This document shows positions 16,497 to 32,132 of a stretch of 32,132 nt of DNA, in pieces. The stretch is taken from assembly GCA_913056345.1 (NCBI GenBank), contig CAJXMH010000033.1, positions 1-32,132 on the forward strand, read 5' to 3'. Within the stretch, counting starts at the first letter, position 1. Each line of letters begins with the position of its first letter. A program made the translations under genes and the position numbers. The stretch comes from an uncultured Flavobacteriales bacterium. Its GTDB lineage: Bacteria > Bacteroidota > Bacteroidia > Flavobacteriales_E > Vicingaceae. The notes below the pieces were generated by a model that ran no database searches, was not told where the DNA came from, and saw only the letters and a program-made list of their open reading frames with translations.

Positions 16497-17537
16497 TTAC
16501 GCTTCCCGCTGAGCGGTATAACGCTCCCACTTTTCGATTACCGCTTGCATATCATCAGGTAATTCAGAGTCGAAAGACATCCATTCTTTACTTACAGGAT
16601 GGGTAAAAGAAAGTGTTTTTGCATGAAGGGCTTGTCTCGGACAAATTTCAAAGCAATTCTCAACAAAACGCTTGTACTTTGTAAAGGTGGTTCCTTTTAA
16701 AACCCGATTGCCGCCATACTCCGGATCATTAAAGAGTGGGTGGCCAATCCACTTGGAGTGCACCCTAATTTGATGCGTTCTACCTGTGTCTAATTTGTAT
16801 TCCATTAAGGTAACATATCCAAACTTTCTCAGCACTTTGTAATTGGTGATAGCAGGCTTGCCAATATCACCATCGGGAAATACATCCATCACCTTTCGGT
16901 TTTTGACAGAACGCCAAATATTTCCTTCAATTTTCCCCGTTTCGTCTTCGGGCTCACCCCAAATCAAAGCCTGGTAACGTCGATCTGAAGTACGGTCATG
17001 AAACTGATTTGCTAAATGACTCAAGGCAAGTTCAGTTTTCGCAATCACCATTAAACCAGTTGTATTTTTATCTAATCGATGCACCAAGCCTGGTCGGCCT
17101 TCATTGCCTTCCATTTCGGGTAGGTTCTGAAAATGGTAAACTAAGCCATTTACCAGGGTTCCTGAAAAATTGCCATAACCCGGATGCACCACCATATTGG
17201 CAGGCTTATTCAAAACCAGTAAACTATCATCTTCATAAACAATGTCAAGCGAAATGTCTTCTGCCTTCAGCTCAGTTTCTCTTGGAGGGTAAGGCATCAC
17301 GATTGAAACCTCATCCATTGGCTTGACTTTGTAATTGGGTTTTACCTCTTCTCCGTTCACCAAAACATTGCCAGAATGCGCTGCTTGCTGAATCTTATTG
17401 CGTGAAGAATTGGGTAAGCGATCACTCAGAAACTTGTCAATACGGAGCGCTGCCTGACCCTTATCTGCGATGATCTTATGGTGCTCAAAAAGCTCCTCTT
17501 CTTCCTCGTGCTGTTCCTGTTCTATGTCATCTCTCAT
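16497..17537 (-). CDS. rluD: RluD-type 23S rRNA pseudouridine synthase
   Basis: A 346-residue RluA/RluD family enzyme that isomerises uridine to pseudouridine in RNA. An S4 RNA-binding domain spans about residues 30-85. The catalytic domain follows, with the catalytic aspartate Asp156 in HRLDKNTTG and the RTHQIRVH motif near residue 260. RluD would modify the helix 69 loop of 23S rRNA; the exact target is inferred from family and from the S4 domain. An acidic N-terminal extension (residues 1-20, mostly Glu/Asp) precedes S4. Its start overlaps the stop of the T9SS gene as ATGA, so it is the third gene of the PASTA-T9SS-rluD unit. Confidence 0.9.
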   Translation of the reverse strand: MRDDIEQEQHEEEEELFEHHKIIADKGQAALRIDKFLSDRLPNSSRNKIQQAAHSGNVLVNGEEVKPNYKVKPMDEVSIVMPYPPRETELKAEDISLDIVYEDDSLLVLNKPANMVVHPGYGNFSGTLVNGLVYHFQNLPEMEGNEGRPGLVHRLDKNTTGLMVIAKTELALSHLANQFHDRTSDRRYQALIWGEPEDETGKIEGNIWRSVKNRKVMDVFPDGDIGKPAITNYKVLRKFGYVTLMEYKLDTGRTHQIRVHSKWIGHPLFNDPEYGGNRVLKGTTFTKYKRFVENCFEICPRQALHAKTLSFTHPVSKEWMSFDSELPDDMQAVIEKWERYTAQREA

Positions 17538-19771
17538 TCTCTAAGCACTACTTTTTTGGTCTGTTGAATTCCGTTTTCTAATTCGATTCTGAGGAAATAA
17601 AGCCCACTAGGAAAACCTCCTAGTTCGAGCTGCAACTGATTTCCGCTTAGGACCAATTGCCCTCTTGCATCATAAAGTTGATAGTGTTGCAGCCTTGCTG
17701 ATCCTTCAATGGAAATGTTGAGCTGGTTACGAACAGGATTCGGAAATACGGTAATGGCAGTTTTTCTTTTAGGTTGTTTCACTAGTCCAACCCCCCATTC
17801 CTTTTTCCTGAATACAGGCCGAATCATCGAACTACCGTCAAAAATTCCTGATGATGGATTGCTCCAACTTTGTCCGTCTAAACTCCAAAATGTTTTATCG
17901 CGGTTGTTATTATTCAAATCATACCCCACATTCAGGGAAAGTGGACCGATCGATTTAAAGCCAATGTAAAAATTTTGGGGTACAGGGATCAAGGTGTCTA
18001 GCCAAAAAGTGAGGAATCCATTTGGTTCTGTATAAATCGGATTGTACAGTTCTGTTTTTTGATAAATTACCTGTGTGGGGTTCAGTCCACTCCAAATTGT
18101 AATCTCAAACGATTGAGAAGTGATGGGATTGTTGTCAAAAATAAAACGTTGTGGTAAGAAATATATCTGCATTCCGCCTACTGTATCAGCAATAGGCATG
18201 TTAAACTCCACGGCCAAGTATGAGAAAAGACCACCTCCTGAGGCACGCGGATTGACGCCGTAACCAGCCTCCGCCGTTCCATCGTCATATGCGTAATAGT
18301 TATCTAAAATAGCCTTGGAAGTTAAGGTGTCGTTTGCTCGAATGAGATCTGGAGCATCGCTTGGACCAGGCCTAAAATCGATATCAGCAATTACTTCAAG
18401 CACTCCTGAACTGTCTATGTAAGAGGGCGGAAAATCAAAGTTCAAGGGATAGTCAAAAGCAATCGAAAAGCCAGGAGGGATGATCGAGAAACGGTCATTG
18501 GTAGGAAAACGGTAAAACTCTGTATTGTTGACGGTATCTGGAATTACTACTTTGTTAAATACGTTCAATCCCCCATCATGCAAACTTCTAATTTGTAAAC
18601 CCTTCAAACTATCTACCATAAAGTTGCCAGAATTTGGCTTAAAATGCCACCATGGCATAGCAAAATAGTCCTTCAGTAAAGGTGGGGGTGAATTGACAAA
18701 AGCAATGTCCTTCGCACTTTGATCGTTGCGTGTTCTTTGGTCATTCAAATAAATATAATCAATGTGCCATTGGTCAAAAGCTCCTGCTGAAGAGGCATAA
18801 GCTCTGAAGCGAAATTGGAATGCATTGGTAAGAAAAGCAGGGTCCACTTTTACAAAAACTTGGCTAAAAGTATCGGCAAGGAAACCACCTACGCCCCAAA
18901 CTTTAGCCCACCTTTGGTTAGTACTGTTGTAAAATTCTAAGACTAATGAATCGTTGCGCTCGGGTGGATCTAAGCTTAAACCCTTTGGCTGGTAGAAGAA
19001 ACTAAAGTAAGTTGTATCCGTTGTGCTCGAAAGATCAATTGGTACAGAAGTAAGGTAGTCGGCTTTTACAGTAATGGCCAGTTCAATGTTGTAAGGTAGG
19101 CCAAATTCATTTAAGCCATCAAATGTTGCAACACCCCTAGTGGGTGGGTCTATGGCAAAGGTCTCATTAATGAGTACATCCCGATCAGTATACCAATTAT
19201 CTGCCGCAGCATCCACAAAGTAATACTGTGCTGAATCTTGAAAAAGGGTTGGCACAACAGCTATGGTGTCTAAAGGCTTGTTTATGGTGTCGTATACATT
19301 ATAAGGTAGGTAAACGTTTCTCAGGATAGTGGTGGTGGGAAAACTCTGCAAATTATGAACTTCCAAGATTCCATTGAACTGCTCGGTTCTTGAAATTATG
19401 GAGCTATCTGCACCTATTTGATAGTAAAATGTAGTATCCGTAACAAAACCTGTGGTGTCGGTTACCAATTGACCATTCAAGTAAAGGCGGTAAACTGTGG
19501 TATCTGTTAAGCGAGGATCGTTTAAGTTGTTAACCCGGTCTGAAAGATGATTGGAGGTAAAGTCATCAATAAACGGAAGGTCTAGCGTATCATAACGGTA
19601 AATAAAACTGTCTTCCCGCACAGTTAACTTATCCCACTTGAGTTGTTTTACTTTTTTATCTTTTTGAGGAATTAAAGCAGGATTATAGCTAGGTACCACC
19701 ATTTTATCCTGTGCAAAGAGGTTCAAACTAAAAAGTTTGAAGAGCAAGATCACGCTAATCCACTGTTTCAT
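17534..19771 (-). CDS. T9SS-secreted protein with type A sorting domain
   Basis: A 745-residue exported protein. The N-terminal signal peptide is MKQWISVILLFKLFSLNLFAQ. A long beta-rich body of about 640 residues has no domain I recognise. A C-terminal Por-secretion sorting domain of about 75 residues follows (VFPNPVRNQLNISIEG, then YDARGQLVLSGNQ and the final SGLYFLRIELENG). T9SS cargo is exported across the outer membrane and often anchored to the surface. The stop of the PASTA gene (TAA) directly abuts its ATG (TAAATG), and its stop overlaps the rluD start, so it belongs to one translational unit. A possible partner for the PASTA protein or for cell-wall sensing, by context only. Confidence 0.85.
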   Translation of the reverse strand: MKQWISVILLFKLFSLNLFAQDKMVVPSYNPALIPQKDKKVKQLKWDKLTVREDSFIYRYDTLDLPFIDDFTSNHLSDRVNNLNDPRLTDTTVYRLYLNGQLVTDTTGFVTDTTFYYQIGADSSIISRTEQFNGILEVHNLQSFPTTTILRNVYLPYNVYDTINKPLDTIAVVPTLFQDSAQYYFVDAAADNWYTDRDVLINETFAIDPPTRGVATFDGLNEFGLPYNIELAITVKADYLTSVPIDLSSTTDTTYFSFFYQPKGLSLDPPERNDSLVLEFYNSTNQRWAKVWGVGGFLADTFSQVFVKVDPAFLTNAFQFRFRAYASSAGAFDQWHIDYIYLNDQRTRNDQSAKDIAFVNSPPPLLKDYFAMPWWHFKPNSGNFMVDSLKGLQIRSLHDGGLNVFNKVVIPDTVNNTEFYRFPTNDRFSIIPPGFSIAFDYPLNFDFPPSYIDSSGVLEVIADIDFRPGPSDAPDLIRANDTLTSKAILDNYYAYDDGTAEAGYGVNPRASGGGLFSYLAVEFNMPIADTVGGMQIYFLPQRFIFDNNPITSQSFEITIWSGLNPTQVIYQKTELYNPIYTEPNGFLTFWLDTLIPVPQNFYIGFKSIGPLSLNVGYDLNNNNRDKTFWSLDGQSWSNPSSGIFDGSSMIRPVFRKKEWGVGLVKQPKRKTAITVFPNPVRNQLNISIEGSARLQHYQLYDARGQLVLSGNQLQLELGGFPSGLYFLRIELENGIQQTKKVVLRE

Positions 19772-27190: not shown

Positions 27191-29809
27191 TTAGAGCGCC
27201 TGTAGCTGCTTTTCAAGCAATTTCATTTTTTCCTCGGCGTCCATTTTCTTCTTTTGCTCCAACTCAACTACTTGTTTAGGTGCATTTTGCACGAAGCGCT
27301 CATTGGCTAACTTTTTCTCTACACTCTTTAAAAAACCGCTTAGGTAGCTGATCTCTTCTTCAATCTTCTTTTTTTCTTCCTCTAAATCAATTTGTCCGCC
27401 AATGGGTACAAAATACTCTTTTCCTGAAACTCTTAAAGCGATGCTGTTTGGAATTTCCTCATTGGATAAAGCAAGAGCTGCTGTGTTGGTTAGTTTAGAG
27501 ATTACAGCATTGTAAGGATTTTCCAATTCTGACTGTTGGTTTGTGTAGAGTTCCAACTGCTCTTTGAAAGGTATATTCTTTGACTTTCTGAGGTTTCTCA
27601 ATTCAATAATCAACTCTTTACTGTTTGAGAAGTCAGCTACCTTATGATCTAAATCTGCAATTGGCCAGCTGCCTACGGCTAAACAATCAGTAGCTTTCCG
27701 TTCACCAAGCAAGTGGTAGATCTCTTCAGTAATAAAAGGCATAAAAGGGTGCAGAACACTGAGGATTTTTTCAAAATGCGCCTTTGCTTGGAGGTAGGTT
27801 TTTTCTGCAATTGGCTTTCCGTATTCGGGCTTAATCATTTCCAAGTACCACGAACAAAACTCATCCCAAGTCAATTTGTAAACCGTCATTAAGCAATCAG
27901 AGATCCTAAACTTGTCGAAATTATGATTCAATTCTGTCAAGTTTTTGTTGAAAGTTGCCGCAAACCATTTGTCAGCCATTTCAGCCGCTTCAGTTGACTC
28001 TGCAGCAGCATCAATTTCCCATGACTTCAACAGGCGCATGGCATTCCAAATCTTATTGGAAAAGTTTCGTCCTTGCTGACAAAGATCTTCATTGAACAAA
28101 AGGTCATTTCCCGCTGGAGCACTTAACAACATACCAACTCGAACACCATCTGCACTGTGCTTTTCCATTAATTCAATGGGATCAGGTGAATTACCCAATT
28201 GTTTACTCATTTTTCTGCGCTGTTCATCACGCACCATACCTGTATAATACACATCGCTAAAGGGCTTTTCTCCTCGGTACTCATAGCCTGCCATGATCAT
28301 ACGAGCTACCCAAAAAAACATGATATCTGGAGCCGTGACCAAGGTAGCAGTAGGGTAATAATAGTTGATTTCTTCATTATCGGGGTCTTTAAAACCATCG
28401 AAGACCGAGATTGGCCACAACCACGAAGAAAACCAAGTGTCTAGGACATCCTCGTCTTGTCGTAAGTCAGTAAGGGCTAATTCTTTTCCACTTTTCTCAA
28501 TAGCTAATGGTAGGGCTTCTTCAGCAGTTTTGGCAATTACGAAATCCTTTGGTCCGTTACCGAAATAAAAAGCTGGAATTTGATGACCCCACCAAAGTTG
28601 ACGAGAAATACACCAATCTTTGATGTTTTCCATCCAATGCTTGTAAGTATTCTTGGTATTAGCCGGATGAAATTTAATGGTATCATCCATCACTTTCTCT
28701 AGGGCCGGTTTTGCCATTTCTTCCATATTACAAAACCATTGTAAAGAAAGCTTAGGTTCGATCACAGCGTCTGTTCGCTCTGAGCGACCAACTTTATTGG
28801 TGATCTCTTCAACTTTCACCAACAAGTCTTTTTCTTTTAACTCTTCAGCAATGGCATTGCGCACTTCAAAGCGATCTTGTCCTACGTAAAGCTGGGCACT
28901 TTCATTAAGGGTTCCATCATCGTTTAAAATATCAATGCTTTCCAAATTGTGCTTTACCCCTAACTCATAGTCATTGATATCGTGAGCAGGTGTTACTTTC
29001 AAACAGCCGGTTCCAAACTCTAAATCAACATATTCATCTTCTATAATTGGAATACTTCGATTGATCAAAGGCACGAGAGCTCGCTTACCTTTTATGTGAG
29101 TGTAGCGCTCATCATTTGGATTGATGCAAATAGCAGTATCACCTAGAATTGTTTCAGGTCGGGTAGTAGCAATGGTAAGTGTTTCTTCACTTCCTTCGAT
29201 TTGATAGTTGATGTAGTAAAGTTTAGACTGAACCTCTTTATGAACCACTTCCTCATCAGAAAGGGCCGTTTGCGCTGATGGATCCCAATTGATCATGCGT
29301 ACTCCACGGTAGATCATGCCTTTGTTGTAGAGGTCGATGAAAACGTCGATCACGGCATCTGACAAACTATCTTCTAGCGTAAAGCGGGTGCGATCCCAGT
29401 CGCAAGAGGCCCCTAGGCGCTTGAGCTGCTTTAGAATGGTGCCACCGTATTCTTCAGTCCATTCCCAAGCGTGTTTCATGAACTCTTCTCGGCTTAGGTC
29501 TTCTTTTTTGATTCCTTGAGCCGCTAACTTCTTAACTACTTTTGCTTCGGTGGCAATAGAAGCGTGGTCAGTTCCAGGCACCCAGCAAGCGTTTTTGCCT
29601 TCTAATCGCGCTTTGCGAATCAAAACATCTTGAATGGTGTTGTTGAGCATATGCCCCATGTGGAGCACCCCTGTTACATTGGGTGGCGGAATTAAAACTG
29701 TGTAAGGTTCTCTTTCATCGGGCTGTGACTTAAAAAAACCTTCTTCCTGCCAATGCTGGTACCATTTTGCTTCGCTCTTTGCAGAATCGTAATTCTTGGG
29801 AATTTCCAT
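27191..29809 (-). CDS. valS: valine--tRNA ligase
   Basis: An 872-residue class I aminoacyl-tRNA synthetase that charges tRNA-Val. The signature HIGH motif appears as HMGH in [16 protein letters not shown] (near residue 50), and KMSKS as KMSKQLGNS near residue 530. The CP1 editing domain includes the [20 protein letters not shown] stretch. A C-terminal coiled coil (about 810-870, many Glu/Lys heptads) binds tRNA, as in other ValRS. No anomaly beyond the KMSKQ variant. It begins downstream of the tandem T9SS region and is the first gene of the valS-ppk1-ppx series. Confidence 0.96.
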
Positions 29810-29874: not shown

Positions 29875-29962
29875 CACTGCTGCTCTCGATACAAATTGAA
29901 ATTAGCTCATTTTAAAAATTACAACACCGCTGCCGTTGCTTTTCAATTCACTCGATCAGCTA
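29875..29962 (-). repeat. 88-bp inverted-repeat element, copy 1
   Basis: It matches copy 2 (31832-31919) without gaps at 80 of 88 positions. Within it, AATTGAAA (29894-29901) pairs with TTTCAATT (29941-29948), and GCT and CGA further out also pair, giving an imperfect hairpin with internal bulges and a loop of about 39 nt. It lies downstream of a T9SS cargo gene in both copies. The nature is unknown: an unusual terminator, a recombination sequence, or a remnant of mobile DNA. Confidence 0.7.
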
Positions 29963-29965
29963 GTA

Positions 29966-30070
29966 AAAAGTTCTATTATTCTTTTCTCCTCTTTTTCTCT
30001 TATTCTTTTCCTCTCTTCCCCTCTTATACTCTTTTTCTCTTCCTCTTTTCCACTCTTCTGCTCTACTACT
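29966..30070 (-). repeat. purine-rich 3' tract after T9SS gene, copy 1
   Basis: On the minus strand the ~100 nt after the stop are nearly all A and G, built of short variants such as AAAGAG, AGGAAGAG and TATAAGAG. This is the RNA 3' region of the T9SS gene. The related tract at about 31933-32033 has an extra TATAAGAG unit, so the tract varies by short repeat number. Confidence 0.65.
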
Positions 30071-31657
30071 TTACCGCTTCATCACTTTCTCTTCCTTCAC
30101 CAAGCCTCCTTGCTCATCTTCCACGCGAAGCAGGTACAAGGCCGGCTCTAACTCTGCAATATTTATTTCAATAATGTGGCTTTGTTCGGTTTGCTCCATG
30201 ATCAGCCTGCCTTTGAGGTCGTATAATTTTAGCTGCAAGTTTTGTATAAAGCCATATTGCTTGATCTTGAGTAGTTCTGTGGTAGGATTGGGATACACTA
30301 CAATTTCTTCTTGTTTTTTCTGTGGTGCTTCTATGCCTACTGCTCCAATTCTGGGCCAATGGTAAACGCTATCAATGTAGCCTACTTTAGTAAAGTAGTC
30401 AAAGCTTTGGGCAGTAGGGTTAAGGTTTTCGCTGCATTGCGCTACAAACCACATACCTCCGCTTGAGGTAGGGTGTATATCCTGAATGTAACAATAATCG
30501 TTTAAAGGCAGGTAATATTCCCAATGCTTTTGGCCTTGATTGTTAAGCGCAAAAAGCGCTAAATCAGTATTCCATCTTTCTGGAGCCGTGTTATTAAATC
30601 TCTTACTTGCTGCTAAGTAAAACAAATCATTTTCTACCTTCTTGAATGGCTGTTCACCCAAAGAAGATTTCTCAGCAGTATCAATTCTGCCATATGCATA
30701 GGCCGTTCCCATTTCCTGTAGACTGCTCATCGATCTCACTGCTACTGCCATATCAGAATAATAGGCAGGATTTGGATTGGGAGTAGCCGAAAAGGATTGC
30801 ACAAAATTAATGACTGGTCCAACGGCAAGAAAGTTTCCATTAGCACTTGGCTCAATTACCACTTGGCGATCGTACGGGTTCGGAGGATTGATGACATGGG
30901 TTTGGTAATTACTGCTTATAGTTTGAGCGGTATTGGGTATAAGGCTTAAATTAGTATCTATTTTAGCTAAGGCAGCACCAAAAGGCGGGTTTGAATCGCT
31001 TAACAATACGTTTGAGCTTACTATAAAATTGGCATTTAAAGAGTCATAAATAGCATCTTCAATAAAACCGAAAAAATCAAAACAAAAAAATGAATTGATT
31101 GACCATGAATTATTTTGCAAATTGTGTTTTAAAACAAAGGCTTTAGAAAACGGAAAGGTGCGAACCCTAAATCCGCCAAATAAATACACAGATGAATTGA
31201 TGGCAATGGTTTTAAAAACAACTAGTTCTCGAAAATTAGAATCCAATAAAGGCAGTGTTCTTATGGAATCATAATCATTTCTTGCACCTATTTTATACCA
31301 GATGGTACTTCGTCCATTAAGTGCAGAATCTGCTAAACCACCTGCTTTGTACCAATTACCATTGCCCAACTCTTCAAAGTGCATGATATAAGTAAGGTGA
31401 TCCTGAATTTGCAGAGAATCATTAATTTGATTCACCGCATTATTGATTATACTAAATTTTGCTTGCCTAAGGTCTTCACTACCGGTATAAGTATTACCAC
31501 TCATTTGATTATTGTACAGCAAATTCAAGCTTTCACTTGAGTCTAAGTAACTACCGACTACAATGTGGCTGGCAAATTCTTGATTTCTCACCAACGACTG
31601 AGAAAAGAATTCAGGTGATATACTAAATAGGACAACGTATAAATAAAGTTTTTTCAT
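30071..31657 (-). CDS. T9SS-secreted protein with type A sorting domain
   Basis: About 528 residues from the ATG at 31657, chosen because MKKLYLYVVLFSISPEFFSQS makes a normal signal peptide. ATGs at 31666 and 31699 are alternatives. The body (about 430 residues) holds beta-strand-rich repeats, perhaps a propeller-like structure (phrases such as FYLAASKRFNNTAP and TSSGGMWFVAQC), but no family I can name. The C-terminal ~75 residues are a Por-secretion sorting domain (VVYPNPTTELLKIKQYG, YDLKGRLIMEQT, PALYLLRVEDEQGG). It would be exported by the type IX system. A tandem paralogue lies upstream on the same strand (32034 onward), with a shared 3' region. Confidence 0.85.
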   Translation of the reverse strand: MKKLYLYVVLFSISPEFFSQSLVRNQEFASHIVVGSYLDSSESLNLLYNNQMSGNTYTGSEDLRQAKFSIINNAVNQINDSLQIQDHLTYIMHFEELGNGNWYKAGGLADSALNGRSTIWYKIGARNDYDSIRTLPLLDSNFRELVVFKTIAINSSVYLFGGFRVRTFPFSKAFVLKHNLQNNSWSINSFFCFDFFGFIEDAIYDSLNANFIVSSNVLLSDSNPPFGAALAKIDTNLSLIPNTAQTISSNYQTHVINPPNPYDRQVVIEPSANGNFLAVGPVINFVQSFSATPNPNPAYYSDMAVAVRSMSSLQEMGTAYAYGRIDTAEKSSLGEQPFKKVENDLFYLAASKRFNNTAPERWNTDLALFALNNQGQKHWEYYLPLNDYCYIQDIHPTSSGGMWFVAQCSENLNPTAQSFDYFTKVGYIDSVYHWPRIGAVGIEAPQKKQEEIVVYPNPTTELLKIKQYGFIQNLQLKLYDLKGRLIMEQTEQSHIIEINIAELEPALYLLRVEDEQGGLVKEEKVMKR

Positions 31658-31725
31658 TTTATACATATTAATCAAAGAAAAAGCAGGTAGGTAAAACAAT
31701 AGGTATTTCGTCGGCTTTCATGTCT

Positions 31726-31756
31726 CTAAGATAATAGACTTCAACGACATATCAAA
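31726..31756 (-). promoter_or_regulatory. promoter of the T9SS gene at 30071
   Basis: Minus strand: TTTG (31753-31756), then 19 bp, then TATCTTAG (31726-31733), one mismatch from TAnnTTTG. The spacing fits the Bacteroidota -33/-7 pattern and predicts a 5' leader of about 60 nt before the ATG at 31657. Confidence 0.45.
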
Positions 31757-31831
31757 TTGTTTCGACAAAAAACAATCTACAATACGAACAATACTTAAAA
31801 GCAATTCATTGGTAAAAATTTACTTTTCTTT

Positions 31832-31919
31832 CACTGCTGCTCTCCATACAAATTGAAATTAGCTCATTAGGAAAACCATAACACCGCTGCCGTTACTTTT
31901 CAATTCACTCGATCAGCTA
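31832..31919 (-). repeat. 88-bp inverted-repeat element, copy 2
   Basis: Second copy of the element at 29875-29962, 1957 bp away and in the same orientation. The eight differences cluster in the loop side (31869-31879) and leave the AATTGAAA/TTTCAATT stem intact (31851-31858 with 31898-31905). Confidence 0.7.
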
Positions 31920-31932
31920 AGAGAAACTTTCC

Positions 31933-32033
31933 GCACTTTTACACTCATCTTCTCTTATACTTTTATTCTCTTCCCTTCTTATACTCTTATACTCTTTTTC
32001 TCTTCCTCTTTTCCACTCTTCTACTCTACTACT
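31933..32033 (-). repeat. purine-rich 3' tract, copy 2
   Basis: The same kind of tract after the stop of the partial T9SS gene at the window end. A stretch of more than 30 nt next to the stop is identical to copy 1 but for one base. Then the copies differ by short insertions, mainly TATAAGAG repeats. Confidence 0.65.
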
Positions 32034-32132
32034 TTACCGCTTCATCACTTTCTCTTCCTTCACCAACCCTCCCTTTTCATCTTCAACCCTTAACAAATAC
32101 AAAGCAGGTTTCAGCTCACCAAGGTTTAGTTC
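32034..32132 (-). CDS. T9SS sorting-domain protein, 3' end only (partial)
   Basis: The last 32 codons and the stop of a gene that continues past the window edge. The frame reads ELNLGELKPALYLLRVEDEK, then GGLVKEEKVMKR and a stop. This is the end of a Por-secretion domain, with about 25 of the last 30 residues identical to those of the gene at 30071. It shows a tandem paralogue arrangement. The rest of the protein cannot be described. Confidence 0.85.
   Translation of the reverse strand, partial: ELNLGELKPALYLLRVEDEKGGLVKEEKVMKR

Follow-up and report, generated by a model that had tools for sequence, protein, structure and literature searches.

A tandem array of T9SS cargo genes in an uncultured Flavobacteriales bacterium, with spacers and gene ends probably homogenised by recombination

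The window, meaning the whole stretch of 32,132 bases analysed here, is contig C33 of the 2.9-Mb genome of an uncultured Flavobacteriales bacterium. It begins within a 16S rRNA gene (positions 1–923) that is truncated there by the end of the contig, and the far end holds one part of an array of T9SS genes. All array features given below with coordinates lie on the minus strand. The fixed right-hand anchor of the array is valS (valine--tRNA ligase; 27191–29809; NCBIfam NF004349, 1108.9 bits). Between valS and gene 1 (30071–31657) lie an 88-bp element, E1 (29875–29962), and a purine-rich tract, T1 (29963–30070), which directly follows the gene 1 stop codon. The longest open reading frame of gene 1 runs from a TTG at 31699, and its likely start is the ATG at 31657. 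Upstream of gene 1 are a spacer with a promoter-like site, U' (31685–31825), a second 88-bp element, E2 (31832–31919), and a second purine-rich tract, T2 (31920–32033), directly after the stop codon of gene 2. Only the 99 bases of the 3' end of gene 2 (32034–32132) are present, as this gene is truncated by the end of C33. The purine-dense stretches map to 29970–30026 and 30027–30072 for T1 and to 31990–32035 for T2.

Contig C11 of the same genome starts with a gene 1 relative that lacks its C-terminus, followed by gene 3 (C11, to 1350), a complete gene 1 relative, a lipoprotein-like gene (C11:3980-2985), and a divergent DUF1573 gene. The lipoprotein-like gene is labelled from its N-terminus and has no Pfam or NCBIfam match. 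The partial gene at C11:3-1247 is very probably the remainder of gene 2. The genome of G004 (UBA5081), a relative of the same family and another genus, has the order valS, a single T9SS gene, and a lipoprotein-like gene, with a DUF1573 gene and what are presumably an aminotransferase gene and a UppP-like gene on the opposite strand. Because this gene order corresponds to C33 followed by C11, we place the two contigs next to each other, with gene 2 crossing the gap; the basis of this inferred join is synteny with G004, not sequence. As far as their sequence is available, all three genes have an intact reading frame, with gene 2 split into two parts.

Genes 1 and 3 encode T9SS type A cargo proteins. 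Specifically, gene 1 matches TIGR04183 with 40.8 bits (E-value 1.6e-10) and gene 3 with 35.1 bits (curated cut-off 23), and the corresponding scores for PF18962 (Pfam) are 45.3 bits (1.1e-11) and 40.2 bits (curated cut-off 27). The gene 1 structure predicted from a two-sequence alignment has a mean pLDDT of 50, with the sorting domain as the most confident part. Among the 50 Foldseek matches listed for this model, TM-scores by query length are 0.12–0.35, and many of the matches are what we take to be beta-propeller proteins (CylK, PorZ, BamB, clathrin, WDR91), which is at most a hint of such a fold.

The array thus joined sits between valS and the divergent DUF1573 gene, and its unit is an operon of a lipoprotein-like gene and a T9SS gene. 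Along the minus strand it begins with a tract, T0 (C11:4391-4480; 70/90 identical to T1), a truncated E remnant of 28–32 bp, E0 (C11:4363-4394; 26/28 to E1 and 27/28 to E2), the upstream block of the lipoprotein operon, U0 (C11:4189-4329), an (AGGT)9 tract (C11:4161-4197), the lipoprotein-like gene, a hairpin, and gene 3. It continues with a 41-nt remnant of a lipoprotein 3' end (36/41), a second hairpin, gene 2, T2, E2, U', gene 1, T1, E1, and valS. The T-E pair is thus present at three of the four unit boundaries, at one of them truncated, and E lies between the end of one gene and the upstream region of the next.

A survey of valS matched 36 genomes and returned 30 loci, of which 28 remain with the own genome and G004 set apart. 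In 16 of these 28 loci, DUF1573 is located upstream of valS at a distance of at most 1.5 kb; it was not found within this distance in the other 12, two of which (L106 and L125) are cut by a contig end. At the same site there are three adjacent copies on C33/C11, given the join, versus one in G004. The 16 valS-DUF1573 loci and the single copy in G004 make acquisition of the operon between valS and DUF1573 probable, with multiplication in the lineage of the present genome. Members of the protein family were detected in two of 60 relatives and, in a search of 295 genomes of the class with four candidates scored per genome, again in two, both times the own genome and G004. A scan of named genomes gave no match with gene 1 alone as the query; with the alignment as the query it gave UBA5081 and, at 21% identity, a sorting-domain region from Saprospiraceae. 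In the own genome, no further full relatives were found.

Genes 1 and 2 end in the same way. Their last 33 coding bases including the stop codon (30071–30103 in gene 1) are identical (33/33), T1 and T2 match at 87/108 positions, and E1 and E2 match at 80/88 positions in an ungapped alignment. Chance is excluded for the E1-E2 match, because its local alignment score is 72, whereas 1000 single-base shuffles of E2 gave at most 18. In the 66 bases that precede the last 33, only 44 are shared, while the C-terminal 32 residues of the two proteins are 84% identical. U' is a second copy of U0, with which it matches at 133/141 positions, so that the spacers are 81–94% alike. The first-pass annotation had described this common end of 33 coding bases, purine tract, and 88-bp element, the divergence of the DNA just upstream with the protein kept, and a non-coding 3' part more alike than the coding part; its coordinates and numbers are correct and these observations hold. 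The spacers are this alike even though gene 1 is saturated at synonymous codons relative to its paralogs.

This saturation is seen in the counts of synonymous codons. The same codon is used at 114/247 sites between gene 1 and gene 3 and at 77/181 between gene 1 and gene 2, and thus gene 1 is no closer to its paralogs than to its ortholog in another genus (95/202 for G004). Nei–Gojobori dS (NG86) is not computable for gene 1 versus gene 2 or gene 3, and is 1.05 for gene 2 versus gene 3. At the protein level, gene 1 is identical to gene 3 at 256/538 residues (48%) and to the G004 cargo protein at 40%. One could imagine that the genes arose by a simple tandem duplication in recent time, that the cargo body then diversified very fast under selection, and that no exchange came later; the divergence is indeed concentrated in the body, and the spacers look young. 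This account is contradicted by the synonymous saturation of gene 1 versus the other copies, which protein selection does not cause, and by the mosaic nature of gene 2, with its gene 1-like and gene 3-like ends; we regard it as very improbable.

Gene 2 is a recombinant. Of its last 99 bases, 96 are identical to gene 3, with all differences in the terminal part (66/66, then 30/33), where gene 2 is identical to gene 1 (33/33). The gene 2 tail therefore switches partner within the last codons, and downstream of the switch follow a gene 1-like tract and E. Gene 2 and gene 3 share the same codon at 187/282 synonymous sites, including a run of 49 identical synonymous codons that was reached in 0 of 5000 permutations and that spans the C33-C11 assembly gap. 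The longest runs for the pairs of gene 1 are marginal, being reached in 207 of 5000 permutations with gene 2 and in 243 of 5000 with gene 3.

A mosaic at the end of a contig could also be an assembly artefact, in which a gene 1 tail was fused to a gene 3 sorting domain at repeat contig ends. Both contigs break within gene 2, C33 after 99 bases of it and in a stretch identical to gene 3. However, E2, T2, U', and gene 1 are on one contig with E1, T1, and valS, and the copies differ at 8/88 (E) and 21/108 (T) aligned sites, so that they are not a single copy assembled twice. Moreover, synteny with G004 predicts exactly the C33-C11 join. A chimera is thus extremely improbable.

The sorting domains also point to exchange. 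Among informative residues, those at which gene 1 equals gene 3 and G004 differs amount to 74/167 in the body (74 versus 93) and to 31/39 in the sorting domain (31 versus 8). For borders between body and sorting domain at residues 431, 457, and 468, the Fisher p values of this difference are 0.002, 7e-5, and 0.004. With the G004 ortholog as the reference, the affinity of gene 1 to gene 3 is far greater in the sorting domain than in the body. Taken together, the saturated gene 1 codons, the gene 2 mosaic, and the site patterns suggest that ends and spacers were exchanged later than the genes diverged, and that the spacers, 91–94% identical in E and U, are much younger than the genes.

The explanation that we favour, and consider probable, is tandem duplication at one site, followed by exchange of ends that homogenised the spacers and the sorting-domain ends while the cargo bodies diverged. 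The ancestral unit would have been T-E-U-lipoprotein-T9SS gene. This unit may have been multiplied by unequal homologous recombination for which T-E and the ends of the genes supplied the homology, and later deletions would have taken parts of units. One deletion probably occurred at a 6-bp microhomology, CGGTAA, which is shared by the lipoprotein remnant and the gene 3 stop region, and would have fused the gene 3 stop to a lipoprotein 3' end. Ongoing crossing over or gene conversion could then keep the spacers and sorting-domain ends alike while the body diverges. E need have no function under this scheme, as it may be spacer DNA that was carried along and homogenised. None of the relatives shown belongs to the same genus, and the order of the duplications is not rootable because G004 is the single outgroup sequence.

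Selection is the other way in which a non-coding 3' part could stay alike. E and U would then be functional regulatory DNA or RNA kept by purifying selection, U as a promoter and E as a terminator, a processing hairpin, or a regulator site. Promoter-like sites, judged against what we take to be the Bacteroidetes consensus, are present in U0 (TTG-N19-TACCTTAG), in U' (TTG-N19-TATCTTAG), and upstream of the G004 operon (TTG-N19-TACATTAG). However, their numbers are near chance in U' (1 versus 0.79 in shuffles) and in G004 (2 versus 0.84) and are higher only in U0 (4 versus 0.78). E1 can form a long imperfect hairpin (z = −1.67 on the transcribed strand and −2.28 on the other), but E2 folds no better than shuffles (z = +0.92 and −0.84). 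In addition, no Rfam family other than 16S has a match in the window at the gathering score, and E was rejected as an RNA element on the folding of E2 and this result.

Short matches to U (25–59 bp, 82–96% identity) also occur in 7 of the 394 other genomes of a class-wide search for E and U (395 genomes including the own one, two candidates scored per genome), versus roughly 0.4 genomes predicted by the E-values. The seven matches (L144–L150) hit the same part of U (window 31767–31828) in unrelated contexts, and at least three of them (L144, L146, and L147) are inside an open frame of another gene. They are probably AT-rich chance matches; because of the excess over the prediction, a short motif common to U and the distant genomes is kept as a possibility.

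Under strong constraint one would expect more to survive in G004, the cargo protein of which is only slightly farther from that of gene 1 than the gene 3 product is. Neither T nor E was found in a search of the G004 locus, E was not found in G004 or the other 58 relatives at E ≤ 0.001, and the DNA upstream of the G004 operon has a weak 49-bp leader match (E = 0.012). Constraint alone is accordingly a less likely cause of the 3' likeness, and we consider purifying selection on E and U rather unlikely as the explanation. The first-pass annotation had proposed that gene conversion or selection keeps the 3' cassette, or that it is a recombination unit; the gene 2 switch and the site patterns support recombination in the 3' part of the array.

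The same annotation had gone further and proposed a common tail behind which T9SS cargo genes are copied or exchanged, with the 88-bp element expected after other T9SS genes. A dedicated recombination cassette of this kind would fit the presence of T-E at most unit boundaries and the fact that gene 2 is recombinant exactly at the tail. However, TIGR04183 has 99 matches at E ≤ 0.01 in the own genome, 96 of them above the cut-off and two in the array, and E was found in the array only. DNA searches of the own genome found only the two copies and the 28–32-bp remnant, and no match to E was found in the 394 other genomes of the class with two candidates scored per genome. The T9SS gene of the window at 17534–19771, which overlaps its neighbour by 4 bases, has neither tract nor E. 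A purine tract was found within about 1.5 kb of none of the 30 T9SS loci inspected, the best-scoring 30 of the 99. By the refuting condition that the annotation itself had set, the wider claim fails, with no copies found beyond the array in the genome and relatives searched, and a dedicated cassette is largely refuted and very unlikely. With E found only there and no tract near the 30 loci, T-E is a feature of the array, not of T9SS genes. E was also rejected as a dispersed repeat or mobile element (MITE- or REP-like), as the two copies and the remnant all belong to one locus.

The motif of the purine tract recurs elsewhere in the genome. This motif, AGAGTRGAARAG, is in excess there, with 23 hits versus none for the reversed control; the hits fall at about 12 places, and a single array on contig C1 accounts for 11. 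Motif hits outside the T9SS array are separated by more than 9 kb from the nearest listed sorting domain of their contig, and on this distance and the 30 inspected loci the tract was rejected as a T9SS feature. A weaker 29-bp tract match (C29:30495-30523; E = 0.003) lies 1.4–1.8 kb from two sorting domains. In 40 relatives the motif has 108 hits in total versus 124 in the control; it is above the control in 17 of the 40, with a maximum in G004 (10 versus 3). Two of six further motif loci inspected (L083, L084, and L097–L100) have a tract of at least 40 nt. Dispersed purine-rich tracts of GAAGAGTAGAAGAG-like units are located, for example, at C1:188364-188479, C1:75655-75753, and C39:6590-6754 of the own genome (G000) and at 29970–30072 of the window. 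At the end of C1 (L010, 8180–8550), a tandem intergenic unit with TTTGCGG-like words and purine tracts lies beside a presumably HipA-like gene, and the contig ends inside it.

Two further features of the operon are observed in both genera. Its leader has a perfect tetranucleotide repeat, (AGGT)9.2 in the own genome (L009, on C11, 4161–4197) and (GATA)6.2 in G004 (L082, 11302–11326), with different units in a similar place downstream of the promoter-like site. The own (AGGT) tract lies within a small open reading frame of 50 amino acids without a Pfam match, and just two AGGT units are left in the U' copy at gene 1. By its sequence, the leader repeat is a candidate phase-variation tract. Both own copies (L009 2931–2986, z = −5.4; L009 1248–1315, z = −3.4) and G004 (L082 9971–10064, z = −5.6) have a strong hairpin between the T9SS gene and the lipoprotein-like gene or what remains of it. 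A double change from A-U to G-C distinguishes the two own hairpins, and in G004 the stem has another sequence; the hairpin is probably a conserved attenuator or processing signal.

The leader repeat can be read jointly with the array as a diversification locus, in which variable cargo bodies of a secreted or surface T9SS protein would be reshuffled between a promoter block and a sorting-domain tail that are both conserved. Gene ends, spacers, and promoter blocks would serve as the recombination homology, and the hypermutable tetranucleotide tract, (AGGT)9 here and (GATA)6 in G004, would switch expression. We consider this joint reading unlikely.

Antigenic-variation systems such as pilE/pilS of Neisseria and vls of Borrelia combine silent donor copies with one expression site, and pilE/pilS has a conserved 3' Sma/Cla repeat. 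Similarly, the array has a conserved 3' coding end and a conserved non-coding element behind variable surface-protein genes. Unlike pilE/pilS, it has no silent copies found and no demonstrated variation, and E was found at no other locus. Unexpressed vls cassettes of Borrelia are homogenised by gene conversion, according to the available text of PMC3828179. As in vls and other concertedly evolving bacterial repeats, in so far as that text describes them, the array has adjacent copies, near-identical beside diverged blocks, a mosaic copy, and remnants of deleted units. Other than that, it differs from vls as described there, in that it consists of only three genes, no silent cassettes were found, and spacers and sorting-domain ends are homogenised while the bodies are old.

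Porphyromonas gingivalis exchanges domains and alleles among surface proteins, T9SS cargo included, according to the available text of PMC5266723. T9SS sorting-domain proteins are diversified by recombination in both cases, but the events described there are domain rearrangements and alleles exchanged between strains, whereas the array comprises tandem paralogs and spacers of one genome. This is the nearest case among the matches listed in the open-licence literature on T9SS or tandem surface-protein genes in connection with gene conversion or concerted evolution, whose available text contains no comparable 3' cassette. Likewise, the matches listed there for tetranucleotide repeats in Flavobacteriia and for polypurine tracts contain, in their available text, nothing specific.

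Given the C33-C11 join, the copies are adjacent and derive from one ancestral locus, and they carry recombinant or homogenised blocks beyond what constraint would account for, which are two of the features expected of concerted evolution. The array works like other concertedly evolving tandem arrays; the process is well known and the case is local. It cautions that recombination between neighbours can yield, as a by-product, a non-coding 3' cassette that is very conserved. The sorting-domain matches of the own genome lie partly in neighbouring groups, on C29, C42, C23, and C2, where further tandem arrays are possible. Should the present array differ from strain to strain, it would offer a tractable example of recombinational diversification in Flavobacteriales. 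The array illustrates how T9SS cargo families can expand, with sorting signals that stay uniform while the cargo part changes.
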